A stretch of 64,000 bases of DNA. It comes from Aestuariibius sp. HNIBRBA575. Lineage in GTDB: Bacteria > Pseudomonadota > Alphaproteobacteria > Rhodobacterales > Rhodobacteraceae. Location of the stretch: assembly GCF_040932005.1 (NCBI RefSeq), contig NZ_CP162414.1, positions 337,501 through 401,500 of the forward strand, given 5' to 3'. The notes under the pieces are model-generated. The model was given only the letters and a program-made list of their open reading frames with translations, did no database searches and was not told the DNA's origin. Within the stretch, counting starts at the first letter, position 1. Every line of letters starts with the position of its first letter. Below, piece after piece: positions 6,142-60,964 of the stretch. The translations under genes were made by a program, and so were the position numbers.

Positions 6142-6188
6142 GGTGTATCCCTGACTTATCTAAAATGAACCATTGCTCATTTTATAGA

Positions 6189-8546: not shown

Positions 8547-8714
8547 GAGACGTTTCCTTTGATTTGCGACCCGACGGGTGCGCGCATTTGGGTTCCTAGA
8601 CGCCAACACGTGAAGCCAGAAAACGCCCATGTCAATGCGTGACGCTTTGCGAATATGGCCTCTGGTTGGTAGCGTTTTCGTGATTGAATTCCGTTATCGT
8701 TTGAAAACAGTGGA

Positions 8715-42890: not shown

Positions 42891-43776
42891 TCATAGCTTT
42901 TCCTTAAGCGCTTCGTAAGGCGTTTTGCCGTTGTGAGCGCCTAGCAAGGTTATAAAACCGCTCCCATTCTTCACGTTTGGCTTAGGGATCGACATCGTCT
43001 TTGTAGCTGAGAAGTTGGTAGAACTCCAGCTGGTCGGACCGGTGTAATCGCTCGACCTTCCCGTTGAGCCTTGGTGAGCTTGGCTTGATGTTGGCGTGAC
43101 GGATGCCCTTGTCCTCGACATGCCAGTGGAACTTGGCCTGGAACTCATGGCCGTTATCGGTCCTGTTCTCGCGGATCCGAAACGGAAACTTCTCAATAAC
43201 GTAATCGACAAAATTCAACGCATTTGCCTGAGTATGCCGGTCATAGATTTTGAGCGCGCGAACACGGGTTGCGTCATCGATTGCAGTGAATTGAAAGCGC
43301 CTGATCTTCTTGCCATGGTTTCCTTGTAACGTCAGGAGCTTAACGTCCATCTGGATGTGGTGACCAGGGACCTGTTTGTTGTAACGCTTGGTGTGGACCT
43401 TGCGCACCCTAGTTCCGTGTGGGAGTCGGTTCAGTCCATGGCGCCGGAGAATGCGGTAGACGCCTGCATCGGAAATTTAGATGCAGTGATCGCGCGCCAG
43501 ATACTAGACGATCAAAATAGGCCCGATATGGTAATTGCGGCGCAGGTACAAAACTTTTTCAACGATCTCGGGTGGCGTTTGATTGACTGGGTTCTTTGGA
43601 AAGGTTTTGGCATTCTTCAGCCCTTCCTCTCCTCGGGACCGATACGCAGCCCGCCATCGATAAAAGCTGGGCTTACCGATCCCAAAATAGCGGCAGCTCT
43701 TGCTCACACAGCCGATCTTATCAGCATGTTGCAGAACCCGAAGTTTACGTTGGATCTCTCATTGATCGTCTGTCAT
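42891..43776 (-). pseudogene. Degraded IS481-type transposase
   Basis: Read on the minus strand from ATG 43776: codon 6 is TGA, then EIQRKLRVLQHADKIG and CRYFGIGKPSFYRWRAAYRSRGEEGL (helix-turn-helix part). After a frameshift near 43510-43400 comes the DDE core (HIQMDVKLLTL, ENRTDNGHEFQ, NGKVERLHR). A further frameshift precedes the C-terminal HNGKTPYEALKEKL. Non-functional. It borders the island on its right. Confidence 0.85.
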
Positions 43777-44494: not shown

Positions 44495-45505
44495 CTAGGC
44501 TGGCGCTATATACTCGGTGTCCGCGATCCCGGCCATCCGAGTTAGGACGTCGTCGCCCAGCTGCATCAACCAGTAAAGCAAGTCGATGAAAACCCAGTTC
44601 TCGGCCAGTTTTTCGCCCTCGCGGCGGTAGATATCAATCACGCGGAATTCACATGCCTTGTCTGTTCCCGGCATCCCCATGAACCCACCATGTAGTTTGG
44701 CCGTGAAATTCGGCCAGCCAAAGAACCCGCCGTAGTGTCCCTCAGCCAGACGTGCCACATGGCCCGTGGACGAGCGATCATAGAACGCTGCGCGAAACGG
44801 GCCCGAATGTTGCTTGGCATAGCGTTCGATCGTGTAGGCCGCTCCGATACCTGTTGGGCCCCACCAAATCATGTCGTCGTGCCAAGTACGCGCCAATTCT
44901 TCCTCCAAGGGAAGACCCAATTGCCATGTTCCCAAATCGCCAATCATCGCATTGATCGCGGCCAACGTCGCCTCGCCCTCTGCCACGGGCTGCACGTTAT
45001 GCAAAAGCCCGCCATGGGTCATCGGACCGGGCTGGACCAATTGCGCCGCCGTTTGCGGCGGAAACGGGTTTTGGCCCGCCTGCACCATCAGATGGGGGAT
45101 ATCGACGTGCAGCATTGTCTCGGCGATCTTGCCGTTCTCGATGCGGTTAAACTCGCAATAGCGCAGCATGGTGATCTTGTTGTTTGGCCGAATGCCCAGC
45201 CAAACCGCATCAAACAGCCCCATCAGATGCCCCATGGACACGACCCAGACCCCTTTGCCCACGGTGTTTTCGCCCGCAAAGAAGACATCCTCGCGCCGCT
45301 GCAAACGTGTGAGGGATGCCAATAATGGCCCCCAAAACACCCGCGCTACGTCGCCAGCACCGTGTTGCTCATAAAAGGGGTGCATTCCGCGCCAGTGCCA
45401 ATCGGGGGTCGTATGGGTGGCAAGCACGTCCCCGATCGTTTCTGGGCTCGCACCTTTCATGTCCGCGTACAGCGCGCGCACAACTGCCTTTTGGTCCTGA
45501 AACAT
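44495..45505 (-). CDS. Tandem NTF2/SnoaL-like protein 1
   Basis: 336 residues. Two halves (about 1-150 and 170-330) each show the NTF2-like pattern: a Trp-rich first helix/strand region (TPDWHWRGMHPFYEQHG; WHDDMIWWGPTGIGA) and a later FRIEDGKI-type strand (FNRIENGKIAETML; IYRREGEKLAENWVFIDL). The family binds or transforms small hydrophobic rings and acids. It is the last gene of the transporter operon (3 bp after the MalG-type permease) and a homologue of the proteins at 51454 and 54262. The reaction is unknown. Confidence 0.75.
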   Translation of the reverse strand: MFQDQKAVVRALYADMKGASPETIGDVLATHTTPDWHWRGMHPFYEQHGAGDVARVFWGPLLASLTRLQRREDVFFAGENTVGKGVWVVSMGHLMGLFDAVWLGIRPNNKITMLRYCEFNRIENGKIAETMLHVDIPHLMVQAGQNPFPPQTAAQLVQPGPMTHGGLLHNVQPVAEGEATLAAINAMIGDLGTWQLGLPLEEELARTWHDDMIWWGPTGIGAAYTIERYAKQHSGPFRAAFYDRSSTGHVARLAEGHYGGFFGWPNFTAKLHGGFMGMPGTDKACEFRVIDIYRREGEKLAENWVFIDLLYWLMQLGDDVLTRMAGIADTEYIAPA

Positions 45506-45508
45506 CTC

Positions 45509-46393
45509 TTATCCCTTAACAGCGCCTGCTGTCAGACCTGACACGATCTGGCGTTGGAAGAACAGGATCAACACAAACAATGGCGCCGTAGCCGACACAA
45601 CGGCCGCGACCGCAAACATGACGTTGCCTTTGGTTTGCGTGGTGCCAAGGAAGGACGCAATTTTCGGGATCATGGTCTGGTTTTCCTGATCCAGCAGCAT
45701 CGCCGCCACAGGAAAATCGTTGTACGCCAACAAAAAGCTGAACAGCCCCGTCGTGATGACACCGGGCCACATCACCGGCAGAATAACATGGCGGAACGCC
45801 TGAAGCCTGTTACACCCGTCCACCATTGCGCTTTCATCAAGATCTTTTGGAATATTGCGGAAAAAGGACGTCATCATCCACAGGCTGAACGGCTGGTTGA
45901 TGGCGACCAGAACGATGATTGTGGTCCCCAATCGCCCCCAAAGGTTCCATTCATAAAACGGCAAAAGATAACCGGACACCAGTGTGATCTGCGGCATAGC
46001 GCGGAACATCAACGCCGCGATCAATATCCAAAACGCATAATTATATGTGGACCGTGACAGCGCGTATCCGGCAAGGGTGCTCAACGTTAACGAAATCGTC
46101 ACCACACAGAAGCAGACGATCGAAGTGTTCATCACGGCGCGGCCGAATTCTTCGGTGACCCAAGCGCCGTAATATCCGTCGCCGGTAAAGGACCCACCGG
46201 TCTCGATCCTCGTCGACTCTCCTGTCAGGGCATATGCCCAGTTCGCCTTTGAAAAGAAATCACCCTCGACTTTGAAGGATCCCCAAAGGGTCCACAAGAA
46301 TGGGAAGGCCGCCATAATCACCCAAAGGACCAAAAACCCTGTCAGGATTATCCGAAGTGACGTCGGCTGTTTACGGGGGTTGGCTGTGCTCAT
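45509..46393 (-). CDS. ABC sugar-type transporter permease (MalG-like)
   Basis: 294 residues, six membrane segments. The EAA loop reads ESAMVDGCNRLQAFRHVILPVMWPG, the ATPase contact. It sits 3 bp from the companion permease. With the binding protein at 47522 and the ATPase at 49029 it forms a complete CUT1-type importer. Confidence 0.92.
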   Translation of the reverse strand: MSTANPRKQPTSLRIILTGFLVLWVIMAAFPFLWTLWGSFKVEGDFFSKANWAYALTGESTRIETGGSFTGDGYYGAWVTEEFGRAVMNTSIVCFCVVTISLTLSTLAGYALSRSTYNYAFWILIAALMFRAMPQITLVSGYLLPFYEWNLWGRLGTTIIVLVAINQPFSLWMMTSFFRNIPKDLDESAMVDGCNRLQAFRHVILPVMWPGVITTGLFSFLLAYNDFPVAAMLLDQENQTMIPKIASFLGTTQTKGNVMFAVAAVVSATAPLFVLILFFQRQIVSGLTAGAVKG

Positions 46394-46396
46394 CGG

Positions 46397-47419
46397 TCAG
46401 GCTCTCTTGAAATCGCGCCACGTGCGCACAAGGACAGGGAAAAGAAGAATACCGACGCACAACACTGTCAAAAGTGAGGTCGTCGCGGCCGAGTTCAGCA
46501 AACGCGTCTCTCCACCAAGATCCGAAAAAATATAGGTCGAAAGAGATTGCGCATGCGCTTCTGCATTGAACGAAATCAGCGGTTCAAAGACGCGAAAATT
46601 ATCCATAAGCTGGATCAGCGCCACAAACGTCACAAGCGGCATGATGTGCGGGATCGTCACAAACCGCACCCGTTGCCAACGGTTCGCACCATCAATCATC
46701 GCCGCTTCGTCTGCGTCCTGACTGACCGATTGCAAGCCGGCGTAAAACACCACAAAGGCGAAAGGCGCCGCATGCCAAATTCCGTAGACCATCAGCATGA
46801 TCCACATCATTGGCGTTGATGCTTTGACACTTAAATCAGGGTTGCCTGCTAACGCCTGGATTGCATGCCCCAAAACACCGCGTGCGTCTACCATCCAGAA
46901 CAATACCAGCGACCCGACCAGCGGGGTTATGATGAATGGAAGCAATGACACAAAGATCAATGGACCTTTGATCGCGCGCGACGCGGAGTTCACTGCAATC
47001 GCGATTGCAAATCCAAGAACAATCGTCAGCGGCGTAACAATGAAGGTAAAAGTTAGAGTGAAAACAATGGCACTGTAGAATGGCAGGTTCATCACCTTAG
47101 TCCACCAGTCGCCCCATCCAGTTGATGTGCGCCAGGCTTCTCCCATTTCGGAAAACGCCAAATGTCCACGGTTGGTGTAGTTCTCAAAGCCTACGAAGCG
47201 GCCCAGCGGTTGTGCTTCACGAAGGGCAAGGGTCTGCTCTTGATTGACAGAAGTTGTCTGGGTGCACCCAAACGGCCCGCAGGTTTCAACGACCTCCATG
47301 ACTTGTTCATGCTGTGCGTGAAAAGACTGCAAAACAACCGAGATGACCGGGAAAACGATTAATAGCAGCATAGCCAGAAGCGACGGTGCGACGAATGTCA
47401 GGAATGTTCGATGGTTCAC
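46397..47419 (-). CDS. ABC sugar-type transporter permease (MalF-like)
   Basis: 340 residues from GTG 47419, placed by the cgaggg site 7 bp upstream; a GTG at 47443 is also in frame. There are six to seven membrane segments and an EAA motif, DEAAMIDGANRWQRVRFVTIPHIMP. A periplasmic loop with two Cys (VVETCGPFGC) follows the first helix. Confidence 0.9.
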   Translation of the reverse strand: MNHRTFLTFVAPSLLAMLLLIVFPVISVVLQSFHAQHEQVMEVVETCGPFGCTQTTSVNQEQTLALREAQPLGRFVGFENYTNRGHLAFSEMGEAWRTSTGWGDWWTKVMNLPFYSAIVFTLTFTFIVTPLTIVLGFAIAIAVNSASRAIKGPLIFVSLLPFIITPLVGSLVLFWMVDARGVLGHAIQALAGNPDLSVKASTPMMWIMLMVYGIWHAAPFAFVVFYAGLQSVSQDADEAAMIDGANRWQRVRFVTIPHIMPLVTFVALIQLMDNFRVFEPLISFNAEAHAQSLSTYIFSDLGGETRLLNSAATTSLLTVLCVGILLFPVLVRTWRDFKRA

Positions 47420-47479
47420 GACTTGCCCTCGGTTATCTCGCACGCAAACGTGCTTGAGTTAGTACGTTTCTCGTGGTGT

Positions 47480-47504
47480 GAGCGGCGCACACCGTGCACC
47501 GCTC
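47480..47504 (-). promoter_or_regulatory. Intercistronic stem-loop after the binding-protein gene
   Basis: gagcggcgcac - acc - gtgcaccgctc, an 11-bp stem with one G:T position, in the gap between the binding-protein stop and the MalF-like start. It has no T-run on the transcribed strand. Such hairpins often protect the upstream mRNA and raise binding-protein levels relative to permeases. Confidence 0.6.
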
Positions 47505-47521
47505 TTTCTTTTTAGGATCGC

Positions 47522-48766
47522 TTACTGGGTTACGAAGCCAGCTTCGACAGCCGCAGCGGTGTAGGCTGCTTCGACATCGGCCAGTGCCTGCTCAGCAGAC
47601 TCGTTACCTTGCATAAAGTCAGCCAGTTCCGCACCCAAAGCAGTGTGAAGCAGGCCTTGGAATGGAACCATCGGGTATGGCTTGGACCCAGCGGACACGG
47701 CAGCAAGAACGCCTTCGTTGATCGGCTGTGGTTCAAACCCGTCGATCAGCCAAACGGCTTGCCCCATGGTTTCATCGTTCAGCAATGCAGGGGATACCCC
47801 GTATGCCATTGCCTGGAACGTCGCAGCAGCATCTTCGTCGCTAATGTTCTTGGCCACGGTCCAGCCGTCCCACCACAATGTCGTCGCTGGAATGCCGCTG
47901 TCGCCAACCATCAATGGGCCGGCCACTTTGGTGTTTGAATAAACTTCTTCGGCAGAGCCTTCGTCGTCCATCAATACGCCCGTACGTGAGCCCCACATGT
48001 TCATCAGCGCCACGTTGCCTGCTTCCCATTCCGCAGACGTCGCGTTGGAGTCATGCGTCAGGAAGTCAGGACTCATGTATTCAGACAGCGCCTTCATCAT
48101 TTCCAGCGTGGCAACACCAGCTTCGTTGTTGACGGAAACATTCGCTGTGCCTGGCTCAAAGAATTCACCGCCGTGGCCGATATACATGTTGTTGAATTCC
48201 TGCGCGAGGTTCCAACCCGAAGCATAAGCACCACCCAATGGGTTTTCCATGATGCCCGCATCCCGGATCGCCGCGGCTGCCGTTAGCATTTCTTCGTATG
48301 ATGTTGGGATTTCCAGACCGACCTGCTCTAGTACGTCTTCGCGATACACAAGCGTCTGCGCGTTCGCCATGAACGCAATCGCCATTACATTTCCGTCTAC
48401 CGAAATCTGCATATGGTTTGGGATATCCGCACCGTATTCAGCAACCAAATCATCAAGCGGGCGCACAACATCTTCGTTGATCAGTGCAACAATAGACGAG
48501 TTCGCAACAATCGCTGTTGTGTACGCCGCGGGGTCGCCCTGCATACCAGGCAAGTTTAGTGTCTGGTGATCGGCAGTAAGGTTTGCCTCTGCGTCCAGAC
48601 CGTCACATGTCTGGGCCAAAGCAGCTATAGAATGGATGGCTGGAAATTCGTTTCCGATGATGCTTAACCGGCCTTCCGCGGTACATCCATGACCATCCGC
48701 AAATGCTACCGTGCCCATTGTCAGGGCGGCAGCTGTGGCCCCCATCAGTTTGGTAAATTTGGTCAT
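47522..48766 (-). CDS. ABC sugar-type transporter substrate-binding protein
   Basis: 414 residues with a signal peptide (1-23, ending VAFA-DG). Extracellular solute-binding family 1: typical blocks are VYREDVLEQVGLEIPTSYEEML, WEAGNVALMNMWGSRTG and a C-terminal hinge helix. It captures the substrate in the periplasm for the MalF/MalG-like permeases. The large number of acidic residues is usual for a marine bacterium. Substrate unknown. Confidence 0.92.
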   Translation of the reverse strand: MTKFTKLMGATAAALTMGTVAFADGHGCTAEGRLSIIGNEFPAIHSIAALAQTCDGLDAEANLTADHQTLNLPGMQGDPAAYTTAIVANSSIVALINEDVVRPLDDLVAEYGADIPNHMQISVDGNVMAIAFMANAQTLVYREDVLEQVGLEIPTSYEEMLTAAAAIRDAGIMENPLGGAYASGWNLAQEFNNMYIGHGGEFFEPGTANVSVNNEAGVATLEMMKALSEYMSPDFLTHDSNATSAEWEAGNVALMNMWGSRTGVLMDDEGSAEEVYSNTKVAGPLMVGDSGIPATTLWWDGWTVAKNISDEDAAATFQAMAYGVSPALLNDETMGQAVWLIDGFEPQPINEGVLAAVSAGSKPYPMVPFQGLLHTALGAELADFMQGNESAEQALADVEAAYTAAAVEAGFVTQ

Positions 48767-48842
48767 TATAGTCTCCCTAATGGTTCAGATCGTATTTCGC
48801 TTTTCGTTGGGCGCACTGATTCTAGCGAATCAAAAAACGCCA

Positions 48843-48856
48843 TGCATACGTTTGCA
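48843..48856. promoter_or_regulatory. Candidate LacI operator, site 1
   Basis: tgcatacgtttgca, a near-perfect palindrome centred on CG (one mismatch) of the LacI-family type. It lies 76 bp upstream of the binding-protein start. The same 14-mer recurs at 49001. Confidence 0.7.
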
Positions 48857-49000
48857 ATCAAATGACCATCATGACCACAAAGCAAGTGAAAAATAGGGCG
48901 AGTCAGAAAAAGCCAAAAATGCTGCGACTGCGAAATAGACTTAATGAAATAAGGGGAAAGAAAGAACTTGCGCAGACAATAGAATCAGAATTACACCTGT

Positions 49001-49014
49001 TGCATACGTTTGCA
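49001..49014. promoter_or_regulatory. Candidate LacI operator, site 2
   Basis: Exact second copy of tgcatacgtttgca, 14 bp before the ATPase start codon and about 158 bp from site 1. Together they could form a repression loop over both divergent promoters. The likely regulator is the LacI protein at 53252. Confidence 0.7.
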
Positions 49015-49028
49015 AGAAAGGCGCTCAC

Positions 49029-50075
49029 ATGGCCGAAATTCAGCTCAAGAATGTTCACAAACGCTGGGGCAGTTTTGTCGGCGTCGAGGACTTCGACCTT
49101 ACCATTGCGGATCAGGAGTTCCTCGTCCTTCTTGGCCCGTCAGGTTGCGGCAAGACAACGACTATGCGGATGATCGCAGGGCTAGAAGACCCTACTGAGG
49201 GCGACATCCTCGTGGATGGGAAGCGTATCAACGACCTTGAACCCAAAGACCGCGATTGCGCCATGGTGTTCCAGTCATACGCGCTCTACCCCAACCTCGA
49301 TGTCTACGAAAATATCCGCTTCCCGCTGCGCATGCGCAAGGTTCCTTCGTCCGAACATAAAGAACGCGTCATGCGTGCTTCGGCGATGGTCGAGCTTGAC
49401 GATTTCCTGCACCGTAAACCCGCAGAACTCTCTGGTGGTCAACGTCAACGCGTGGCCTTGGCCCGTGCTATCGTGCGCCAGCCCAACGTTTTTCTGATGG
49501 ACGAACCGCTGTCCAACCTCGACGCCAAGTTGCGGGTTTCTACCCGCGCCCAGATCAAGAACTTGAGCCACGAATTAAAAGTCACCACGATCTATGTGAC
49601 ACACGACCAGATCGAAGCCATGACATTGGCGGATCGTGTTGTCGTCATGTCAGCGGGTGTTGTTCAACAGGTCGGCTCTCCGACGGAAATATACGACAAT
49701 CCAGCCAATACCTTCGTAGCCAGCTTCATCGGCTCGCCCGCAATGAACCTGCTTGAGGGCACGATTGAGGGGGGCACTTTCACAGGTAAAGACGTCACAG
49801 TTACCGGCCTCGACAGCACCCACTCTGGCCCAGTCACACTGGGCTACCGCGCCGAAGATGCCGCTATTGGTGGTGATGCACCATCCGTGAACGCGCCGGT
49901 CTATTCCATGGAGTTGCTGGGCGATGCCACAATGGTCACATTCCGCATCGGCGGCACAATCGCGACCGTGAAGGCCGACAAAGAGTTTCGCGCCGAGATC
50001 GGCGAAACTGTCGCCGCGACAATTCCTGCTGCGACCTGCCATCTCTTTGACGCCACAACAGGTGAGCGGCTGTAA
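49029..50075 (+). CDS. ABC transporter ATP-binding protein (UgpC/MalK type)
   Basis: 348 residues. Walker [11 protein letters not shown]-loop region FQSYALYP, signature LSGGQRQR, Walker [14 protein letters not shown]-loop VTHDQ, then a TOBE domain (about 240-348). It is the energy unit for the divergently encoded permeases and first gene of the catabolic operon, with site 2 at its promoter. Confidence 0.93.
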
Positions 50076-50125
50076 GCCGCTCGACCCGACAAACCTGTAA
50101 CTGCCACGCCCGAGGAAACCCGCAC

Positions 50126-51457
50126 ATGACGATCCGCCATTTGAAAACCGCCCGCTCTGCCGCCGCCCGCGCCGAAGACGACGCCAAAACCCGCGCTATC
50201 GTCGAAGCTGGCCTGAAGGAGATCGAAACCAAAGGCGACGCGGCTGTACGCGAGATGTCGGTGAAGTTCGACAATTACGACCGCGAGAGTTACCGCCTAA
50301 CGCAGGCCGAGATCGACGCCCTTATCGCGAAGGTATCTCCGCGGGAAATGGCGGATATCAAGTTCGCCCAAGAACAGGTACGTGCCTTCGCGCAACACCA
50401 ACGCGACTCCATGTTGGATATCGAAGTTGAAACCATGCCTGGCGTGATCTTGGGGCACAAAAACATTCCCGTTCAGTCCGTTGGCTGCTACGTGCCCGGT
50501 GGCAAGTTTCCAATGGTCGCTTCTGCCCATATGTCCGTCGCGACCGCATCTGTCGCCAAAGTCCCGCGCATAATCGCCGCAACCCCCCCGTTCAAAGGCG
50601 AACCCAACCCGGCAGTGATCGCCGCCATGCACCTTGGTGGGGCGCACGAAATCTATGTCATGGGCGGTATCCAAGCGATCGGCGCCATGGCCATCGGAAC
50701 CGAAACAATTGACCCCGTCCACATGCTCGTCGGCCCCGGTAACGCCTTTGTCGCCGAAGCCAAACGCCAGCTTTTCGGGCGCGTCGGCATTGATCTTTTT
50801 GCTGGCCCAACTGAAACCATGGTCATCGCGGATGAGACCGCCGCCGATGGTGAACTCTGCGCGACGGATCTTCTGGGCCAAGCTGAACACGGCTACAACT
50901 CTCCCGCCGTTCTACTCACCAACTCCGAAAAACTCGCAAACGACACGCTGGCCGAAATCGACCGCCTCCTTGCCATCATCCCAACCGCTGACACCGCTGG
51001 CAAAAGCTGGGAAGATTACGGTGAGGTCATCGTCTGCGACACCTATGACGAGATGCTGCACGTCGCCGACGACATCGCGTCCGAGCATGTGCAAGTCATG
51101 ACCGACCGCGACGACTGGTTCCTCGAAAAGATGACCTGCTACGGCGCCCTGTTCCTCGGCCCACGCACCAACGTGTCCAATGGTGACAAAGTCATCGGCA
51201 CCAACCACACCCTCCCCACCAAAAAAGCGGGTCGTTACACGGGCGGCCTTTGGGTTGGTAAGTTTTTGAAAACGCACAGCTATCAGAAAATCACCACGGA
51301 CGAAGCGGCCACATTAGTTGGCGAATACGGTTCACGCCTTTGCATGCTCGAAGGCTTCGTGGGGCACGCCGAACAATGCAACATCCGCGTGCGCCGTTAC
51401 GGGGGGATCAATGTCCCCTACGGCACCGGCGCGCCTTACCGCGAGGCCGCCGAGTGA
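50126..51457 (+). CDS. Histidinol dehydrogenase-family protein (HpsN-like alcohol dehydrogenase)
   Basis: 443 residues. HisD-family marks are present: [38 protein letters not shown] (Gln and His zinc ligands), [15 protein letters not shown] (Asp ligand) and a C-terminal FVGHAEQ His. It is not near any his gene. Homologues such as HpsN oxidise a primary alcohol to an acid in sulfopropanediol breakdown, so a two-step NAD-dependent oxidation of an alcohol group is the best guess. Follows the ATPase gene by 50 bp. Confidence 0.88.
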
Positions 51458-52491
51458 CAAACCATCCCATCCTCCAACCCTTCCAGAACGCCCTGACAAG
51501 CGTCACAGAAGAGGCCCGAGCAGCCATCACAAAAGTGGTCGCACCTGACGCGCGAATGAGCCTTTGCCATCCTTTCGGCGAGATCAAAGGCGCCGACCTT
51601 TACGATACCCTCTATGCGCCTCTCCTAAACGCGATGCCCGACCTTGAACGCCGCGATATGATCGTACTTTCCGGCACGACGCCGGAAGGTCAGGACTGGG
51701 TCGGTTGCATGGGCAACTACATGGGCACGATGACAAAGGCATGGTCGATCAACGGCCACCACATCCCACCAACCGGCCACCTTACCCATATGCGCTATCA
51801 CGAGTTCTTCCGCATTGAAGACGGCCTTGTGACCGAAGCGCAAATCATCTGGGACATTCCCGAATTGATGATGCAGGCGAATGCATGGCCAATGGCCCCG
51901 CAATTGGGCAAATTCCTTTGCACGCCCGCGCCCATGACGCAAGATGGGCTTACTGTGACGGGCGATGGCCAAGCCACAATGGACCACGTCATCGCGATGC
52001 TCACAGACCTGTGCAAACATCCAGCCCAAGGCGGCCCCGAGGTCATGAACCTCGAAACGTACTGGCACCCGCGTTTCAACTGGTACGGACCCGCAGGGAT
52101 CGGCACCGGACGCGGCATCGCGGGCTTTCGAAACTGGCATCAGATCCCATTTTTGCGCGCCATGCCGGACCGCAAACTCGACGCATTGGGTGATCTTATG
52201 TCCCACTGGTTCGCCCAAGGGGACTATGTCTGTGAAACAGGCTGGCCCAATATGCGCCTGACCATTACAAATGATGGCTGGATGGGCATCGCGCCCGCCA
52301 ACACCGAAGTCCTGCTGCGTTCCCTCGACTTCTGGCGCATGGAAGACGGCAAAATCCGCGAAAACTGGGTTCTGGTCGATCTCCTCGATCTCTACGCCCA
52401 ATGTGGTGTTGACGTTCTCGGCCGAATGTCTGAATTCAATAAAGCCCGAAACCTGGGCCCCATCATCCTACCAGAATGCGAATTCGTTTGA
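51454..52491 (+). CDS. Tandem NTF2/SnoaL-like protein 2
   Basis: 345 residues from GTG 51454, which overlaps the dehydrogenase stop (GTGA). It contains two NTF2-like halves with [24 protein letters not shown] in the first and [23 protein letters not shown] plus [21 protein letters not shown] in the second. The WYGPAGIG motif parallels WWGPTGIG of the protein at 44495, so these are paralogues. Confidence 0.78.
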
Positions 52492-52511
52492 CCTTTCCCC
52501 GCACACCTTCC

Positions 52512-53252
52512 ATGCGCCTTGACGGAAAACGCGCGCTCGTCACCGGTGCCACTTCCGGCATCGGCGAAGGTTGCGCCGTGGCACTGGCCGAGGCCGGCGC
52601 CCACGTCACGCTGGTGGCCCGCACTGCGGCAGCGGTCGAGAAACAGGCGACGGCGTTCCAGTCGAACGGTTGGGATGCCGCGGCGCTACCGCTCGATATT
52701 TCAGACATCGCCGCGAGCGAAGCCACAATTGCTGCCCACGGTCCATTCGACATCCTCGTCAACTCTGCTGGCCTCGCCCGTCACAGCCCCTCGACAGACA
52801 CAACTCAATCCGATTTCGACGCCGTCACCGACCTCAACGTCAAGGCTGCGTATTTCCTCACCCGCGCTGTGGCCAAAGGCCTAATCGACGTGGGAAAACC
52901 TGGCTCCCTCATCAACATCTCGTCCCAAATGGGTCACGTCGGCGGCGTTGACCGCGCTGTTTATTGCGCCACCAAACACGCACTCGAAGGCATGACGAAA
53001 AGCATGGCCATCGAATGGGCCCCGCACCAAATCCGCGTCAACACCATCTGCCCAACCTTCATCCGCACACCCCTAGCCGAGCAAACCCTTGCTATCCCTG
53101 AACGCCGTGCCTGGATCGAAGAAAAGATCAAACTTGGGCGTGTCGGTGAGGTGACCGATATCATGGGCGCGACCACCTTTCTTGCCTCCGACGCCGCCGC
53201 GCTGATCACGGGCACACATCTCATTATCGATGGAGGTTGGACAGCTGACTAA
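52512..53252 (+). CDS. Short-chain dehydrogenase/reductase
   Basis: 246 residues. Classical SDR: cofactor motif TGATSGIGEG (about 12-21), NSAGLA, catalytic Ser in NISSQMG, YCATK (Tyr and Lys), and C-terminal SDAAALITGTHLIIDGGW. Cytosolic NAD(P)-linked oxidoreductase, probably on a hydroxy or keto intermediate of the pathway. Its stop shares one base with the LacI start. Confidence 0.92.
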   Translation: MRLDGKRALVTGATSGIGEGCAVALAEAGAHVTLVARTAAAVEKQATAFQSNGWDAAALPLDISDIAASEATIAAHGPFDILVNSAGLARHSPSTDTTQSDFDAVTDLNVKAAYFLTRAVAKGLIDVGKPGSLINISSQMGHVGGVDRAVYCATKHALEGMTKSMAIEWAPHQIRVNTICPTFIRTPLAEQTLAIPERRAWIEEKIKLGRVGEVTDIMGATTFLASDAAALITGTHLIIDGGWTAD

Positions 53253-54265
53253 TGGGTGCAAAGATCACCTCACTTCAAGTTGCTAAACTGGCAGGTGTCA
53301 GCCAATCTGCGGTCAGCCGCGTTTTTTCGGGCGCATCGGCCAGCCCCGAAACCGCCAAGAAAGTAAAAAAAGCCGCCAAGCAGCTCGGCTACCGCCCCAA
53401 TGTATTGGCCCGCGCCATGATTACCGGCAAGTCGCGCATCATCGGGCTGATCGTTGCCTACCTCGATAACCAATTCTACCCCGAAGCCCTCGAACGCCTG
53501 TCCAATGCTCTTCAGGCGCAGGGCTATCACATCCTGATATTCACGGTCCCCAATTCCACCGACGGCATCGAAAGCGTCGTACAAGACCTGCTCGATTATC
53601 AGGTCGAAGGCATCATCGCCGCTTCTGTCTCGATGTCCTCGGGTCTCACCGATCTCTGTGTCAAAGCGGGTATTCCCGTGGTCCTATTTAACCGTGGACA
53701 GCCCGGTAGCGGTCTTTCGGCGGTCACCTCGGCCAACATGAAGGGCGCGGCGATGGCAACGCAAGCGCTCATCGACGCAGGGCACCAACGCATCGCCCAT
53801 ATCGCAGGCTGGGAAGGTTCTCTTACGGGGCGCGACCGCCAGCAAGGGTTCGAAGAGGCCATGTCCAACGCTGACCTGACGCCTTTCGCAATCATCGACG
53901 GCATGTATAAGCGCGACATTGCAGCCGCCACCGCGCGCCAGCTGATGACGGGCGAAACCCATCCTGACGCGATTTTCGTGGGCAACGACCATATGGCCTT
54001 CGCCGTTATGGATGAGATCCGCCAAATGGGCTTTTCGATCCCCAATGACGTCGCGATCATCGGCTACGACGATGTGCCTCTCGCCTCTTGGCCAGCCTAT
54101 GACCTCACAACCGTGCGTCAGCCCGTCAACCGCATGGTCGAGGCCACAATCGAAACACTTCTGTCTTCGATCAACGGTCAGGAAACCTATGCCCAAACTA
54201 TTGAAATAGAAGGGCCTCTGATCCAAAGAGGTTCCTCACTTCCACCCAAAGGATCATCGCAATGA
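53252..54265 (+). CDS. LacI family transcriptional regulator
   Basis: 337 residues. The N-terminal helix-turn-helix and hinge are SLQVAKLAGVSQSAVSRVF and LGYRPNVLARAM; the sugar-binding-like core follows (IIGLIVAYLDNQFYPEALERL). It is embedded in the operon and probably binds the two tgcatacgtttgca sites at 48843 and 49001, releasing them on binding a pathway metabolite. Confidence 0.92.
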   Translation: MGAKITSLQVAKLAGVSQSAVSRVFSGASASPETAKKVKKAAKQLGYRPNVLARAMITGKSRIIGLIVAYLDNQFYPEALERLSNALQAQGYHILIFTVPNSTDGIESVVQDLLDYQVEGIIAASVSMSSGLTDLCVKAGIPVVLFNRGQPGSGLSAVTSANMKGAAMATQALIDAGHQRIAHIAGWEGSLTGRDRQQGFEEAMSNADLTPFAIIDGMYKRDIAAATARQLMTGETHPDAIFVGNDHMAFAVMDEIRQMGFSIPNDVAIIGYDDVPLASWPAYDLTTVRQPVNRMVEATIETLLSSINGQETYAQTIEIEGPLIQRGSSLPPKGSSQ

Positions 54266-55263
54266 AGGGGTTTTCGAGCCGCTGGAAAGACTTTCCCGAC
54301 TACATCATCGGCATTACCAAAGAGATTTGGGAAGACCGTGGTGTTGGTACTTTGCACGACTATTACGCCAAAGATATCGTCATCCGTACGCCCATGGGCA
54401 TCTCGCGGGGGAACGACGGTGTAATGGCCGCCACCATGGCGACGATCAACGAATTTCCTGATCGCGAACTTCTCGGTGATGATGTAATCTTCTCTGATGA
54501 TCCCAAATTCGGACTTCTTTCCTCCCACCGTATCATCACGCGCGCCACCCACACCCAGGACGGTCAATTCGGCACAGCAACCGGCAGGCCGTGGACCGTG
54601 CGCGTCATCGCTGATTGCGCCGCCAAGAATGACTGCATTTACGACGAATGGCTGGTGCGCGACTATGGTGGGATCGTGCGCCAACTAGGGATGGACCCAC
54701 GCACCTACGCGGCTCAACTCATCGAGGCTGAAGGCGGGCCCGACGCGGCGTCCAGACCGTTTACCCCGGACCAAGACATCGACGGTGGCTACAACGCACG
54801 CGGCAACGACAACGCTTGGGGCCAACGCTACGCGGACACCCTGACACGTATCATGAACCTCGATTTTCACACGATTCCAAGTGACTACGATCGCGCTGTG
54901 AACTGCGAATACGCGGGCGCGCAAACCGTTCTGTCCCATGACAGCGTTACCAAATTCTGGCTCGGTCTGCGCTCCTCTTTCCCTGATGCCAAATTCACGA
55001 TCCACCACCAGATCGGCATGGACAGCGACATGCTGCCACCCCGCGCCGCGATCCGTTGGTCGCTCGATGGCACCCATTCCGGTTGGGGCACTTTCGGCAA
55101 ACCGACAGGCGCCAAAGTTCACGTGATGGGCATGTGCCACGCCGAATACGGCCCCTTCGCCAACGCGGACGGCCCGCAAGATGCAACCATCCGCCGCGAA
55201 TGCGCCCTCTATGACGAAATCGCGATCTGGAAACAAATACTGATGCAAGGAGCACACCAATGA
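54262..55263 (+). CDS. Tandem NTF2/SnoaL-like protein 3
   Basis: 333 residues, start overlapping the LacI stop (ATGA). The two halves (about 1-150 and 185-325) contain YYAKDIVIRTPMGISRG and VLSHDSVTKFWLGLRSSFPDAKFTIHHQI. It is the most divergent of the three. A shared fold in three copies suggests successive or heteromeric steps on related ring compounds. Confidence 0.75.
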   Translation: MKGFSSRWKDFPDYIIGITKEIWEDRGVGTLHDYYAKDIVIRTPMGISRGNDGVMAATMATINEFPDRELLGDDVIFSDDPKFGLLSSHRIITRATHTQDGQFGTATGRPWTVRVIADCAAKNDCIYDEWLVRDYGGIVRQLGMDPRTYAAQLIEAEGGPDAASRPFTPDQDIDGGYNARGNDNAWGQRYADTLTRIMNLDFHTIPSDYDRAVNCEYAGAQTVLSHDSVTKFWLGLRSSFPDAKFTIHHQIGMDSDMLPPRAAIRWSLDGTHSGWGTFGKPTGAKVHVMGMCHAEYGPFANADGPQDATIRRECALYDEIAIWKQILMQGAHQ

Positions 55264-56225
55264 CACCGGTTGAAATGGAATCCCGCATCGTTCGCTACGG
55301 CGACCTGCAACCCTGCAAAACCGCCTTCATCGACGCCCACACACCGGGCAGTGACCAGAAGGAAAACTTCACGATCATTGGCGGCGGCGTCTCTGAGTCC
55401 CCTGACCAACATGTCCACATCTCAATCCCGCACGGCTTCAACATTGGCGCAGCTGGCCAGCCGCCGCGTGTGACAAATTCCTTGCACGACCATCACACGG
55501 CCGAGGCCTTCTTCGTGCTGTCGGGCAAATGGCGTTTCTTTTGGGGCCGTTGGGGTGACGCCGGTGAGATAACGCTGGCAGAGGGCGACATTTTCAACAT
55601 CCCCACGGGTATCTTTCGTGGGTTTGAAAACATCGGCACAGACTACGGGATGATCATGGCGATCCTTGGCGGCGACGATGCAGGCGGTGGCGTTATGTGG
55701 GCTCCACAAGTTATCGAGAACGCCGCCGATCACGGCTTGATCCTTGGCGAAAACGGGAAACTCTACGACACCAAGCGTCAGCAAAAACTCCCTGAAGGCG
55801 TCGCGCCCATGCCGCTTATGTCTGACGAGGAACTCGCCAAACGCCCCGAACCAACCACGGCTGAAGTGCTTCCCAACCACATCGCGCGCTACTGGGATCT
55901 CATGGCATTGGCCGACAAATCCCCCGCCAAAGTTATCGGCGAAAACGGCCTGCTGCGCGACAAGCCGGGCTTCGAGGTCGATTTTATCACGCGCGCCTCA
56001 GCGTCCGAGGCCAAAACAGCGGCCAAATATCCCACCGTCCTAATGCCTATGCGCGGCTATTGGCGCGTAATTTGGGATGGCGGTACTGCAACTTTGGCTC
56101 CCGGCGATACCATGTCGGTTCCCGAAAACCTCGCCCACTCCGTCGTGCCATCCATGACCGGCGAGGCCAGCCTTTACCGCATCGTTGCCACTGGCGACCC
56201 TGCGGGCCTCACGTGGCAGGGCTGA
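55260..56225 (+). CDS. Bicupin protein
   Basis: 321 residues, ATGA overlap with the previous gene. The first cupin (about 60-145) has the metal set HDHHTAEAFFVLSGKW and a later H-less strand. The second (about 230-310: GYWRVIWDGGTATLAPGDTMSVPENLAHS) keeps only the final His. The layout recalls gentisate-type dioxygenases and isomerases, but one centre is degenerate. Cytosolic; the reaction is undetermined. Confidence 0.8.
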   Translation: MTPVEMESRIVRYGDLQPCKTAFIDAHTPGSDQKENFTIIGGGVSESPDQHVHISIPHGFNIGAAGQPPRVTNSLHDHHTAEAFFVLSGKWRFFWGRWGDAGEITLAEGDIFNIPTGIFRGFENIGTDYGMIMAILGGDDAGGGVMWAPQVIENAADHGLILGENGKLYDTKRQQKLPEGVAPMPLMSDEELAKRPEPTTAEVLPNHIARYWDLMALADKSPAKVIGENGLLRDKPGFEVDFITRASASEAKTAAKYPTVLMPMRGYWRVIWDGGTATLAPGDTMSVPENLAHSVVPSMTGEASLYRIVATGDPAGLTWQG

Positions 56226-56320
56226 TTTTCTAATCCGGCGTAAATCCTCTAACCTCAGCAGGTTAGGGGACTACCGCAGAAATTAACCTTACCCGACCCA
56301 CACGCCCCGAAAGGACCGAA

Positions 56321-57445
56321 ATGCCCAAAATCCTAACGTCCCACGTCGGCTCTCTCCCGCGCACACAAGAGGTCGTAGATTTCATATTCGCACGCGAAAA
56401 TCGCGAGGACTACGACCAAGCCGCATTTGATGCCGCGATGACCAAAGCCGTGTCAGAAACTGTTGCCAAACAAGCGGCTGCAGGCGTTGATATCGTCAGC
56501 GATGGTGAAACCTCCAAGATCAGCTATGCCACATACGTCAAAGACCGCTACACAGGTTTTGACGGCGATAGCCCCCGCAACGCGCCTGCTGACTTGAAAA
56601 AATTCCCGACTTTTCTCAAACGCTTAGCGGATGATGGCGGCACCCCGCAATACGCTCGCCCTATGTGCGTCGGCGAAGTGAAATCCAAAGGTCAGGGCGA
56701 GCTGGAAAAGGACATCGCCAACCTGAAAGCAGGCATGGCCGAACAGGGCATTGATAAAGGTTTCATGAACGCCGCCAGCCCTGGTGTTATCTCTCTATTT
56801 TTGCAGAATGATTTCTACGCGACGCGCGAAGAATACCTCGCCGCTTTGGCCGACGCGATGCGTGATGAATACCGCACGATTGTAGACAGCGGCCTTGATC
56901 TGCAACTGGACTGTCCCGACCTCGCGCTGTCCCGTCATATGCTGTTTAACGACCTCTCTGATGACGAATTCCTCAAGATCGCTGGCTCCCACGTTGAGGC
57001 TCTCAATCATGCGTTGGAAGGCATCGATCCATCCCGCGTGAGGGTCCATATTTGTTGGGGGAATTACGAAGGGCCGCACGTTTGCGACATCCCCATGTCC
57101 AAGATGTTCGACACGCTTATGTCGGTGGGGGCGAAGAAGCTGCTCTTTGAAACCAGCAACCCCCGTCACGGCCACGAATGGGTCGTCTTCCGCGACCGAA
57201 AGGCGGACATTCCCGCCGACAAAATTCTGGTTCCTGGCGTTGTCGACACCACAACCAATTTTGTTGAACATCCCGACCTTGTTCAACAGCGCCTTGAACT
57301 TTTCGTTGATATCGTTGGACATGACCGCGTGATCGCTGGATCAGATTGTGGTTTTGGAACCTTCGCCGGATTTGGGGCCGTTGACCCTGAAATTGCCTAT
57401 GCGAAGCTTGCCGCGTTGTCTGCAGGGGCCGCACAAGTCAAATGA
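56321..57445 (+). CDS. MetE C-terminal-like (cobalamin-independent methionine synthase family) protein
   Basis: 374 residues. TIM-barrel family with zinc-ligand candidates HICWGNYEGPH (His, Cys), LLFETSNPRHGHEW (Glu) and AGSDCGFGTFAG (Cys). The N-terminus ILTSHVGSLPRT is family-typical. Stand-alone members transfer methyl or other thiol-linked groups and are often not methionine synthases. A 95-bp gap separates it from the bicupin gene. Confidence 0.85.
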   Translation: MPKILTSHVGSLPRTQEVVDFIFARENREDYDQAAFDAAMTKAVSETVAKQAAAGVDIVSDGETSKISYATYVKDRYTGFDGDSPRNAPADLKKFPTFLKRLADDGGTPQYARPMCVGEVKSKGQGELEKDIANLKAGMAEQGIDKGFMNAASPGVISLFLQNDFYATREEYLAALADAMRDEYRTIVDSGLDLQLDCPDLALSRHMLFNDLSDDEFLKIAGSHVEALNHALEGIDPSRVRVHICWGNYEGPHVCDIPMSKMFDTLMSVGAKKLLFETSNPRHGHEWVVFRDRKADIPADKILVPGVVDTTTNFVEHPDLVQQRLELFVDIVGHDRVIAGSDCGFGTFAGFGAVDPEIAYAKLAALSAGAAQVK

Positions 57446-58110
57446 CCCTTGTTCTCTTGCCCGGAATGATGTGTGACGGGCGGCTGTTCCAACACATGCC
57501 GCCCCACCAATGCATGGCCATTTCTCAATATGACACCGTTCAGGAACTGGCTGCAGATGTCCTCCAGAACGCCCCAACGTCCTTCGCCTTGGGTGGGTTG
57601 TCGATGGGCGGCATCGTCGCAATGGAGGTCATCCGGCAGGCACCTGATCGCGTCACGCGCTTGTGCCTGATGGACACCAATTGTGAGGAGGAAGCTGACA
57701 CAGCAAAGGCGATGCGTCAGCCCCAAATTGACAAAGCTTTGGCTGGGCGGTTGGACAGCGTCATGCGAGACGAAATGAAACCAAACTACCTCGCCGACGG
57801 CCCGCGCCATGCAGAAATTCTAGACCTCTGCATGGAGATGGCGTTAGACCTTGGCCCTGAGGTATTCGCTCGCCAATCTGCGGCATTGCGTGATCGTCCA
57901 GATCAGAAGAAAACTCTTGAAAGCTGGGACAAACCCACGCTGATCCTTACCGGAGCTCAAGACCGACTTTGCCCGCTGCATCGTCACGAATTGATGGCGG
58001 AACTGATGCCTCAAGCAGCGTTAACTATTATTCAAGACGCCGGGCACCTCCCCACACTAGAACGCCCCAATGAAACCCGTGCCGCGCTATCGCGTTGGCT
58101 AGAGGAGTAA
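57442..58110 (+). CDS. Alpha/beta hydrolase
   Basis: 222 residues, ATGA overlap with the MetE-like gene. The catalytic triad is readable: nucleophile Ser in LGGLSMGGIVA, Asp in LTGAQDRLCP, and His in DAGHLPTLERP. It is likely to hydrolyse an ester, lactone or enol-lactone made earlier in the pathway. Confidence 0.88.
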   Translation: MTLVLLPGMMCDGRLFQHMPPHQCMAISQYDTVQELAADVLQNAPTSFALGGLSMGGIVAMEVIRQAPDRVTRLCLMDTNCEEEADTAKAMRQPQIDKALAGRLDSVMRDEMKPNYLADGPRHAEILDLCMEMALDLGPEVFARQSAALRDRPDQKKTLESWDKPTLILTGAQDRLCPLHRHELMAELMPQAALTIIQDAGHLPTLERPNETRAALSRWLEE

Positions 58111-58115
58111 TTCAC

Positions 58116-58808
58116 ATGCAAGCCTCACTACATAAGCTGCTGACCTCGGTCGACACGCCAACGGTCTGCAATGCGATCGAAGTGGCACAAGGCAAGCGCG
58201 GCTTTAACGATTTTACGCGCGGCACGATGTTGATTAACGAGCCGACCGGAGTGGTCGTCGGATATGCTAGCACCGCCAAAATCGCCGCTATCTCCCCGCC
58301 AACAGAGCCGCCCGAAATCGTGCGCGCGCGCCGCATGGCCTATTACAAACAAATGTCCGAAGCCCCACAGCCCGCAATCTGCGTCATTGAGGACGAAGAC
58401 TATCCAAATGCAATCGGTGCGTTCTGGGGTGAAGTAAATACAACGATCCATAAAGGATTTGGCGTTGCTGGTACGCTGACCAATGGCGTCATGCGTGACT
58501 TGGGCGACATGGCACCCGATTATCCGGTGGTGGCAGGATCGGTTGGCCCGAGCCACGGCTTTGTTCACGTGACGGAGCTGGACACTCCGGTTCAGATTTT
58601 TGGGCTAACGATCAACCCCGGCGATCTGGTGCACGCTGATCGACACGGCGCTGTTGTGATCCCACCAGAGATTATCCCCGATCTGGAATCCGCTATCTAC
58701 AAGATGCAGGAAACCGAACGATTGGTCCTTGATCCTGCCCGCGAGCCCGGCTTCGACTTCGCCGCCTTTGAGGCTGCTTGGGAGGCGTTTGAAAAGGCGC
58801 GGACTTGA
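58116..58808 (+). CDS. RraA-like/HMG aldolase family protein
   Basis: 230 residues from ATG 58116 with an agaggag site. The RraA fold is marked by GTLTNGVMRDLGDM (Arg and Asp of the active site) and GDLVHADRHGAVVIP. Related enzymes are metal-dependent 4-hydroxy-4-methyl-2-oxoglutarate aldolases or oxaloacetate decarboxylases, fitting a final carbon-carbon cleavage to central metabolites. Confidence 0.85.
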   Translation: MQASLHKLLTSVDTPTVCNAIEVAQGKRGFNDFTRGTMLINEPTGVVVGYASTAKIAAISPPTEPPEIVRARRMAYYKQMSEAPQPAICVIEDEDYPNAIGAFWGEVNTTIHKGFGVAGTLTNGVMRDLGDMAPDYPVVAGSVGPSHGFVHVTELDTPVQIFGLTINPGDLVHADRHGAVVIPPEIIPDLESAIYKMQETERLVLDPAREPGFDFAAFEAAWEAFEKART

Positions 58809-59649: not shown

Positions 59650-60964
59650 TCAACGACTGATTTGCACCAACGTTCTCCAACGATCAACGTAATTCAGTAA
59701 ATCCTCGCCAACGTGAGGGTTTTCCGCGGAGGAGGCGTTCGGCAATTTCTCATGGTGATCAAAGAGCAAGGCTGCGCCAATACTTGTTCCCGTCACCGCT
59801 TCACTTGTGAAGACGGGCCGGTGAGTGACTGCCTTCAGCATCGCGATGAACTCTGCATTGCGCGCGAAAGGGCCTTCAACAATCGTGGGGCCCGCGCCCT
59901 CAATTAAGTCCAGACATGTCCCTGTCATTAAGGCGAGGTAGTAAGACAGTGCCACCGATCGCTGGCCCGAACCTACTGGTGGCTCCGTATCTCGCCATTG
60001 CATTTTGCAGCGCTGGAATGGACCCGTGCCGTATTCAACCGATGGGAGAAGCATCAAAGGCCGCTCCAGCACCGTGGTGACGTCCTGTCGGGTTGGCGCA
60101 TAGCTGTATGATCTCATATTCGCGGCCACCCATGAACCGCGCGCTTGGCGCCGCATCATCTCCTGTCAACGACATCGCGATCACCCATGTTCCGGTCGAA
60201 ACCACACAGGCTGGTGCATGCTGGGAAAGTAAATGTGGGTAAAGCGAGGCGTTTGAATCGTGGATACCAACGCAAACCGGCGTATTCGGGTCAAGTCCTG
60301 TGGCCTCTGCGATATCCGGTAAAATCGGACCGAGGATATCACTTGGGTGGCGCACTGTTGCCATCTTATCCTGGACGCGCAGGGCCGCAGCGAGGTTAGA
60401 AAATGCGCCCTTATGAGGATCCCAAAGGTCCGTATGACAGCCCAGCGACGTCACATCTGTCGCGGCAATGCCGGTCAGACGGTGCCCCCAGAATTGTGGA
60501 TACGTGACGATCTGCGCCGTACGATCCCTAAGCGTTGGATCGGTGGTGAACTGGTAATGCAACTGTGCACCGATGTTCAAACCACCCACCATTCTTGGCG
60601 ATCCGGTCAAGGCGAAATCAGGCTTTAAGGCATCATAGGCCGTGGCGATATCGGAAGGGTATTCATATTCGTAATCAAGGATCGGCGCGGCAAGAGAGCC
60701 GTCGGCCGCCAGCAACGCGGCACAGGCGCCATGGGTCGTGATCGAAATCGCGTCAACTCGGTGGTTGCGGTGGAAGGTTGCGAGCGCATCCAGCAAGAAG
60801 GCCCAATGCCCCTCTACATCATAGTGCGGCCAAGGCGGCCCCGCCTGAACGATATTGGGACGGGTGACGACTGCGATCTCGGTCAGCGTTGCGAGGTCGA
60901 CAAGCGCGAGTTTTGCGTTGGTTTTGCCGATATCGATGACGGCGATGTGCTTCGGTTCGGTCAT
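59650..60964 (-). pseudogene. rhaK: FGGY-type rhamnose kinase, frameshifted
   Basis: From ATG 60964 the N-terminal FGGY domain (IAVIDIGKTNAKLALVDL, then YPQFWGHRLTGIAATDVTSLG) and the nucleotide part (VVSTGTWVIAM) are intact up to GGREYEI near 60115. Homology then continues in another frame (SYSYAPTRQDVTTVLERPLMLLP) to 59650. A one-base change would restore about 438 residues. It overlaps rhaU by 4 bp, the rhaQ-rhaU-rhaK order of rhizobia. Confidence 0.8.

Follow-up and report, generated by a model that had tools for sequence, protein, structure and literature searches.

A 14-gene locus of Aestuariibius sp. HNIBRBA575 (Rhodobacteraceae) represents a conserved catabolic regulon that, as far as searches of one open-access library reach, has not been described. 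The locus occupies positions 44495-58808 of the window, the whole 64,000-nucleotide stretch of contig NZ_CP162414.1 (positions 337,501 to 401,500) that was analyzed and to which all coordinates refer. We consider it rather probable that the locus is one LacI-controlled regulon for the breakdown of a small polyol-like natural compound, which would be sugar-, cyclitol- or cyclohexenone-like. The same genes are found together in Rhodobacteraceae, Rhizobiaceae and their relatives, a conserved operator motif lies between the two divergent units of the locus, and a smaller core, served by other transporters, extends to Enterobacterales, Deinococcus and Priestia. From this material we infer the class of the substrate, the order of the steps and every reaction of the pathway proposed below.

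The leftward unit (minus strand) encodes in order a CUT1-type ATP-binding cassette (ABC) solute-binding protein (SBP; 47522-48766; PF01547, 1.2e-15), two CUT1 permeases (46397-47443, PF00528, 3.8e-10; and 45509-46393, PF00528, 5.7e-14) and a two-domain SnoaL/NTF2-like protein that we call NtfA (44495-45505), with spacings of 3-78 bp in its three gene pairs. The rightward unit (plus strand) starts with a MalK/UgpC-like ATPase (49029-50075; PF00005, 7.5e-35, with OB_MalK and TOBE_2) that is followed by a predicted zinc-dependent alcohol dehydrogenase of the HisD/HpsN family (50126-51457; PF00815, 2.6e-130), a second two-domain SnoaL/NTF2-like protein, NtfB (51454-52491), a short-chain dehydrogenase/reductase (SDR; 52476-53252; PF13561, 1e-57), a LacI-family regulator (53252-54265; PF00356 and PF13377), a third two-domain SnoaL/NTF2-like protein, NtfC (54262-55263), a bicupin (55260-56225; PF07883, 2.4e-10), a MetE-like protein of 374 amino acids (56321-57445; PF01717, 6.4e-12), an alpha/beta hydrolase (57442-58110; assigned by Pfam) and an RraA-like candidate class II aldolase (58116-58808; PF03737, 1.8e-19). 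Two of the open reading frames (ORFs) carry surplus 5' codons, as the frame of ntfB opens at 51340 with a likelier GTG start at 51454, and the frame of the RraA-like gene opens with a TTG at 58095 with a likelier ATG start at 58116.

Overlaps of 1-16 bp join six of the nine adjacent gene pairs of the rightward unit, and the widest gap, 95 bp, lies upstream of the MetE-like gene. This agrees with the tight packing of the right arm reported in a first-pass annotation, whose gene families are likewise all borne out by Pfam scans and whose LacI regulator does lie inside the unit. That annotation requires correction in other respects. It described a complete diverging CUT1 importer, and although the full set of SBP, two permeases and MalK-like ATPase is present, only the permeases and SBP are on the minus strand whereas the ATPase heads the plus-strand unit. 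It also listed three tandem and paralogous NTF2-like proteins, but ntfA on the minus strand is far from ntfB and ntfC on the plus strand, these two are themselves separated by the SDR and lacI genes, and paralogy is detectable for ntfA and ntfB only. Finally, the MetE-like proteins that it referred to in the plural amount to a single one. On the left the cluster is adjoined by a fragment of an integrase core (rve; 42982-43407, minus strand), which may be what is left of an insertion sequence at the cluster boundary.

The two units are separated by a single 262-bp gap that holds two exact copies of TGCATACGTTTGCA, at 48843-48856 and at 49001-49014, with the second copy 14 bp upstream of the ATPase start. 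These are the only two operator sites in the window (4 strand matches with at most 2 mismatches versus 0.62 expected from shuffles), and a looser pattern, TGCAWNCGNWTGCA, occurs at 5 sites in the whole genome, comprising the two gap copies and three sites of differing sequence elsewhere, versus 1 for the control. The motif is a CG-centred palindrome that is conserved ahead of both units, as is looked for in a LacI-family regulon. The looser motif has 96 sites in 120 related loci, versus 1 for a reversed control pattern, and among the 78 related loci with an ATPase match above 65% identity it is present in 61, with 93 sites. All but one of these (92/93) are located no more than 400 bp from where a match to a cluster gene begins (ATPase 44, SBP 24, ntfB 12, ntfA 8, hisD 3, ntfC 1). 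Since the motif recurs at cluster-gene starts across related loci, both units share a single conserved LacI-type operator, to which the LacI protein of the cluster would presumably bind. A published survey of LacI regulons mentions Rhodobacterales, and its main text contains no mention of histidinol, SnoaL or cupin (PMC4052901). A promoter scan returned 5 hits versus 7.7 expected, which is under chance, and a terminator scan returned 22 versus 19.0 expected, which is near chance.

Of 149 genomes sampled from the family of the window, 60 are matched by an ntfC probe (E <= 1e-10, with partial matches counted). ORFs in 40 fetched stretches of up to 20 kb include members of the LacI family in 37, HisD in 35, SDR in 32, cupin in 32, MetE-like in 30, hydrolase in 26 and RraA in 17, while a few stretches, such as loci L070-L072, have almost none of the gene set. 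The same neighbours are found among the best 80 of 574 confirmed loci, which are the loci that we name and many of which are on cut contigs, in Yoonia, Octadecabacter, Leisingera, Ruegeria, Paracoccus, Microvirga, metagenome-assembled genomes (MAGs) of Rhizobiaceae and others. Altogether 144 loci have been read with a match rule of E <= 1e-15 and no identity floor, again with many contigs cut; a cupin match is present in 126 of them and a cupin of the window type together with a HisD match in 102. These 102 loci contain matches to the SDR in 95, LacI in 95, the MetE-like protein in 82, the ATPase in 82, ntfB in 81, the SBP in 80, the hydrolase in 68, RraA in 55 and ntfA in 33; the presence of ntfC in all 102 is largely by construction because 120 of the 144 loci were found by ntfC. 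Consequently, the first-pass proposal of an undescribed catabolic regulon is supported by both the conserved operator and the co-occurrence of the genes in other genomes, and searches of one open-access library turned up no assigned substrate.

Beyond these relatives the set becomes reduced and its importer changes. A bicupin probe of 398 Pseudomonadota genomes found a match in 24, and distant and plasmid loci keep varied parts of the set together with importers of the CUT1, tripartite ATP-independent periplasmic (TRAP), solute:sodium symporter (SSS), major facilitator superfamily (MFS) and MFS_2 types. For example, Roseibium has a TRAP importer together with a CUT1 importer, and L062 and L064 have a symporter, with the L062 copy matching MFS_2 (MFS/sugar transport). 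Enterobacterales-type loci contain an HpsN-like enzyme, SDR, hydrolase, HpaI aldolase, cupin, LacI and MFS transporter, while Sinorhizobium medicae (L194) has matches to the importer, HisD, SDR, LacI, cupin and RraA along with an amidase. Deinococcus sp. KNUC1210 has genes for three ester cyclases (an annotation name for SnoaL proteins), two HisD-type enzymes, a cupin, hydrolase, aldolase, LacI, SDR and CUT1 importer, and Priestia filamentosa has LacI, SDR-type, cupin, hydrolase, aldolase, ester cyclase, HisD-type and MFS genes plus an amidase. In Roseomonas we found nothing of the core beyond the cupin, hydrolase and aldolase, and the core was not seen in Cupriavidus and Rhodococcus plasmid records with weak cupin matches.

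The key enzyme of the cluster is the HpsN-like dehydrogenase. Its closest solved relatives are sulfopropanediol 3-dehydrogenases, also termed (R)-2,3-dihydroxypropane-1-sulfonate (DHPS) dehydrogenases (8.6e-109 to 1e-106). Passages of a study of HpsN state that the terminal His of its GRY[AS]H motif binds the sulfonate and that the HisD counterpart is GSAPL, and the roles of the HpsN zinc ligands and catalytic Glu-His are taken from the same source (PMC11382572). The window enzyme reads GKFPM at this position and thus has no sulfonate-binding His. An alignment of 128 dehydrogenase copies contains 116 that are at least 60% identical to the window enzyme and 12 that are below 50%. The former read GKFPM in 101 cases, GKYPL in 9, GKFPL in 1 and GKYPM in 1, with 4 not spanning the motif, so the sulfonate-binding His is replaced by Met or Leu in all 112 readable copies. 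The latter read GRYPL (5), GRYPI (3), GRFPL, GRYSH, GRYAH and GLASY (1 each). Both GRYAH (L002, an HpsN candidate) and GLASY (L003, HisD-like) belong to the other HisD-family genes of the window genome, in which three such genes therefore coexist. The zinc ligands Gln/His/Asp/His and the catalytic Glu-His are kept, with GQAEHG, SEH, GDK and the C-terminal His aligned with those of CpHpsN. Because these residues are retained, the enzyme probably still oxidizes an alcohol, and with loss of the sulfonate-binding His the substrate need not bear a sulfonate. Identity as a DHPS dehydrogenase is rejected, as none of the 112 readable copies has a His in the motif. Identity as HisD is also rejected on the basis of GKFPM instead of GSAPL, although the enzyme passes TIGR00069 hisD (419.1 versus a cut-off of 243.8) and profile naming would call it HisD; GSAPL is not a sharp marker since the HisD-like L003 of the same genome reads GLASY there. 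We conclude that the enzyme would work like HpsN without being HpsN and that it likely forms a separate subfamily. Like the DHPS front end of HpsN plus the SDR HpsO, the cluster combines in one unit an SDR and a Zn/NAD HisD-fold dehydrogenase whose catalytic residues are retained, but it is without the sulfonate-recognition His and has a different importer and different downstream enzymes. A second HisD-family type, with GRYP[LI] or GRFPL, occurs in L054, L065, L110, L115, L189, L191, L192, L195 and L199. In several of these loci an amidase lies nearby, as does an RraA or HpaI gene.

The SBP weakly matches solved sugar binders such as MalE3, GacH and SmoF (3.5e-07 to 5.1e-06); the importer has the CUT1 architecture of sulfoquinovose importers and an SBP weakly similar to SmoF (5.1e-06), but unlike sulfoquinovose systems the cluster has no glycosidase, sulfoquinovose isomerase or Entner-Doudoroff gene in Pfam scans. 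For the SDR, none of the 25 NCBIfam rows shown is above its own cut-off, and the best NCBIfam models for the hydrolase, PcaDC and PcaD enol-lactonase, score far under their cut-offs. Only weak matches were obtained for the RraA-like, cupin and MetE-like proteins in a search of solved structures. Each Ntf protein contains two SnoaL stretches (PF07366; 9.1e-18 for NtfA, 1.5e-18 for NtfB on the longer ORF and 6.3e-16 for NtfC). NtfA and NtfB are paralogues of 35% identity, and NtfC has no BLAST match to either that is better than E 0.5. An AlphaFold2 model of NtfC (pLDDT 89) has IdmH (6hnn) as its best solved match over about 140 residues (TMt 0.78), with other single-domain polyketide cyclases also matching, so that Pfam and fold agree on a SnoaL assignment. 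Canonical metal cupin dioxygenases bind their metal through three His and one Glu, with an HxH...E motif and a third His in a second motif. The bicupin has H76, H78, E82 and R120 invariant in 26/26 aligned copies with R120 at the position expected for that His, and a canonical 3-His/1-Glu cupin dioxygenase has accordingly been set aside. Its model (pLDDT 87) is that of a bicupin and has the quercetinase YxaG as the best solved match, with quercetinases and oxalate decarboxylases aligning at TM scores of about 0.5.

The RraA-like protein would catalyze the final step. Its active-site Arg-Asp is kept in 58/58 aligned copies, and passages on the 4-hydroxy-4-methyl-2-oxoglutarate/4-carboxy-4-hydroxy-2-oxoadipate (HMG/CHA) aldolase describe the Arg as essential and the Asp as metal-binding (PMC5065237). 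In distant loci an HpcH/HpaI aldolase (PF03328) stands in for RraA; among 126 cupin loci RraA without HpaI occurs in 55 and HpaI without RraA in 18. Because Arg-Asp is kept and the two alternate, these results point to two aldolase families performing one job, the release of pyruvate from a 4-hydroxy-2-oxo acid by retro-aldol cleavage. An RraA-fold protein with Arg-Asp and an adjoining hydrolase gene are also features of the lower protocatechuate 4,5-cleavage/gallate pathway. Unlike that pathway, the cluster has no ring-cleavage dioxygenase or hydratase family in Pfam scans, and the LigK/PcmE model scores 32.6 versus a cut-off of 304.5 bits.

In the MetE-like protein H243, C245 and C343 (the H-x-C and C zinc ligands) are invariant in 14/14 sequences with a mean column identity of 83%. 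These ligands are shared with cobalamin-independent methionine synthase, from which the cluster protein differs in its length of 374 amino acids and in its location in a catabolic-type unit; epoxyalkane:coenzyme M transferase is another member of the MetE superfamily. The top NCBIfam score is 90.7 versus a cut-off of 406. A search in which 8000 candidates were scored returned only close relatives among the best 120, and those with names are called methionine synthase or methyltransferase, plus one 'hypothetical protein'. The gene was not found in any of 18 distant or plasmid loci checked, which include Enterobacterales-type, Deinococcus, Priestia, Roseibium and Paracoccus alcaliphilus loci. 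The protein is a lineage-specific extra that plausibly transfers methyl or alkyl groups onto a thiol. Additional hints come from L135, a single contig in which partial HisD, SDR, ntfC, cupin and MetE-like genes stand beside a methyltransferase set made up of UROD-family and corrinoid proteins and a pterin methyltransferase (PRK07535, above cut-off). This contig also encodes an HpaI aldolase, a fucose-isomerase-like protein and a creatininase-family hydrolase with IolN as its best model (150.4 versus a cut-off of 245); the methyltransferase-type, hydrolase and isomerase-like genes lie at 602-8820. It was binned as Desulfofustis, but the 2.9 Mb MAG to which it belongs yielded no dsrA, which leaves this taxonomy unconfirmed. 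L135 suggests that the substrate bears a methyl group and perhaps also a ring of the 1,3-diketone type. Since its corrinoid methyltransferase set stands beside the MetE-like gene, the MetE-like protein may do something other than demethylation. Faint hints of methyl and C-N bonds in the substrate come from FAD-GcvT genes near L084, L095 and L139 (3 of the 80 named loci) and from C-N hydrolases: 9 of the 102 loci have an amidase match, both L081 and L095 have an M19 dipeptidase, and Deinococcus has a carbon-nitrogen hydrolase.

Combining these observations, we propose that the CUT1 ABC importer would take up the compound and that the HpsN-like zinc enzyme, using NAD+, would convert a CH2OH group beside a hydroxyl to a carboxylate while the SDR would oxidize or epimerize a neighbouring secondary alcohol. 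The two-domain SnoaL proteins and the bicupin, probably not a classical 3-His/1-Glu dioxygenase, may then perform isomerization, dehydration or cyclization-type steps, after which the PcaD-like hydrolase would open a lactone or 1,3-diketone. Lastly, the RraA-like protein, or elsewhere the HpcH/HpaI type, would split a 4-hydroxy-2-oxo acid into pyruvate and a second central metabolite. The first-pass annotation had suggested alcohol oxidation by the HpsN-like and SDR enzymes, which is supported in kind for the HpsN-family step by its retained zinc and catalytic residues, and a final aldol cleavage by the RraA-like protein, which the conserved Arg-Asp and the alternation with HpaI support in the same manner. 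Its further suggestion that the MetE-like protein removes a methyl or thiol-bound group is sustained to a small degree as regards a methyl-bearing substrate, by the corrinoid set of L135 and the few FAD-GcvT genes.

Several observations weigh against this reading. No gene of the cluster has a known substrate or activity, and the TRAP and AEC-type transporters of other loci would suit an acidic substrate better than a neutral sugar. The operator motif is absent from 17 of the 78 loci, a HisD family member is missing near ntfC in 5 of the 40 stretches and the cupin family from 8 of the 40, and some records are duplicates or nearly identical (L035/L093, L039/L124, L041/L138 and L129/L130). The Deinococcus and Priestia HisD genes are only 58%, 48% and 41% identical to that of the window and read GRYPM, GRYPI and GRFPL, not GK[FY]P[ML]; with this identity and differing motif, their enzyme is related but of another subfamily. 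Additionally, the exchange between RraA and HpaI is not strict, as 51 of the 126 cupin loci have neither (partly owing to cut contigs) and 2 have both, and one RraA-family protein is described in passages of PMC8563752 as a 2-keto-3-deoxy-glucarate dehydratase/decarboxylase.

Other readings have to be set beside this one. The solved relatives of the dehydrogenase, together with an SDR two genes away, would fit a locus for degradation of DHPS or a related sulfonate, but the GK[FY]P[ML] motif of the copies, the separate GRYAH enzyme of the genome and the absence of any sulfonate-specific gene from Pfam scans of the window cluster make this very improbable. Hardly credible either is a role in making or detoxifying a small polyketide-like compound. 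SnoaL proteins are best known from polyketide cyclization and the NtfC model does resemble IdmH and other polyketide cyclases, yet importer genes, LacI control and an aldolase occur here in units without a synthase gene, and related cores carry unrelated importers. It is possible though unlikely that the substrate is an O-methylated sugar or cyclitol, for instance an O-methyl-inositol such as pinitol, or an O-methyl sugar acid; after import it would be demethylated and oxidized to a sugar-acid-like intermediate, which aldol cleavage would then split. The CUT1 importers with their weakly sugar-binder-like SBP, hosts such as Sinorhizobium medicae (L194) and Microvirga (L123), the UROD-family and pterin methyltransferases, corrinoid protein, IolN-best hydrolase (below cut-off) and fucose-isomerase-like protein of L135, and the OtnK and related 3-oxotetronate genes that adjoin a distant cupin-aldolase-hydrolase group are all in its favor. 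Against this scheme, Pfam scans of the window cluster show no member of the inositol dehydrogenase, IolE or IolD families, L194 shows no MetE-like match, and neither the HisD-family step nor the C-N hydrolases close to several loci are accounted for.

Less likely again is the catabolism of mycosporines, mycosporine-like amino acids (MAAs) or gadusol, for which we judge the chances to be slim. Once its amino substituent is gone, the mycosporine ring has the structure of a 2-methoxy-1,3-diketone that carries both a tertiary OH and a CH2OH group. One scheme would cover oxidation of CH2OH beside a tertiary alcohol, methyl removal, opening of a 1,3-diketone and the C-N hydrolases, and the C7 skeleton could end at 4-carboxy-4-hydroxy-2-oxoadipate. 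In this scheme the amino substituent would be released first (C-N hydrolases adjoin several loci), the HpsN-like enzyme would oxidize CH2OH to COOH, the MetE-like or a corrinoid system would take off the methyl group, and the cupin, SDR and hydrolase would oxidize and open the ring before an RraA or HpaI aldolase splits 4-carboxy-4-hydroxy-2-oxoadipate to pyruvate and oxaloacetate. We know of no described catabolic pathway for the mycosporine and gadusol sunscreens, and searches of one open-access library listed none. According to passages of a review, hydrolysis of mycosporine-glycine yields a 1,3-diketone and glycine, and Vibrio harveyi has been suggested to hydrolyse MAA substituents (PMC3083659). 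This reading is built on chemical reasoning, nothing ties the cluster directly to an enzyme or producer of mycosporines, and the absence of the MetE-like gene from the 18 distant or plasmid loci also counts against it.

Loci with OtnK, OtnC and OtnI (3-oxotetronate) resemble the cluster in having a cupin, an HpcH/HpaI aldolase and an alpha/beta hydrolase near each other. They differ in that L186, L187, L197, L201, L202 and L203 have no HpsN-like, SDR or MetE-like match and in that the cupin is only 31-42% identical to the window bicupin over the matched part. In these six loci the related cupin, HpaI aldolase and OtnK-type kinase are located behind TRAP or CUT1 importers, and may constitute a sister pathway, possibly for a tetronate-yielding acid. 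Elsewhere in the window, a rhamnose-type locus (59650-61308, minus strand) has an apparently broken FGGY-type sugar kinase, with the N- and C-terminal domains in two overlapping frames (60035-61051 and 59650-60159) that adjoin a rhaM-like mutarotase (60961-61308). A DUF1611 protein that adjoins an alanine-racemase-N protein (25292-27609, minus strand) resembles, by description, the DgcN/DgcA pair named on a Vibrio pelagius record.

The cluster bears on estimates of sulfonate turnover. Its dehydrogenase matches the GRYAH-type HpsN of its own genome with 342 BLASTP bits, and passages of a study of ocean transcripts give a cut-off of 167 bits for counting HpsN (PMC11131964). Among the HpsN-like matches listed, 68 have 42-47% identity, and 47 of these 68 are no more than 7 kb from a cluster ntfC. 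As an enzyme without the sulfonate-binding His exceeds this cut-off and many such matches are near ntfC, DHPS estimates made from similarity alone may be inflated and HpsN counts deserve a second look. Additionally, given that ntfC matches occur in 60 of the 149 family genomes and that related cores exist in other phyla, the regulon likely represents an unrecognized carbon flow of some size.

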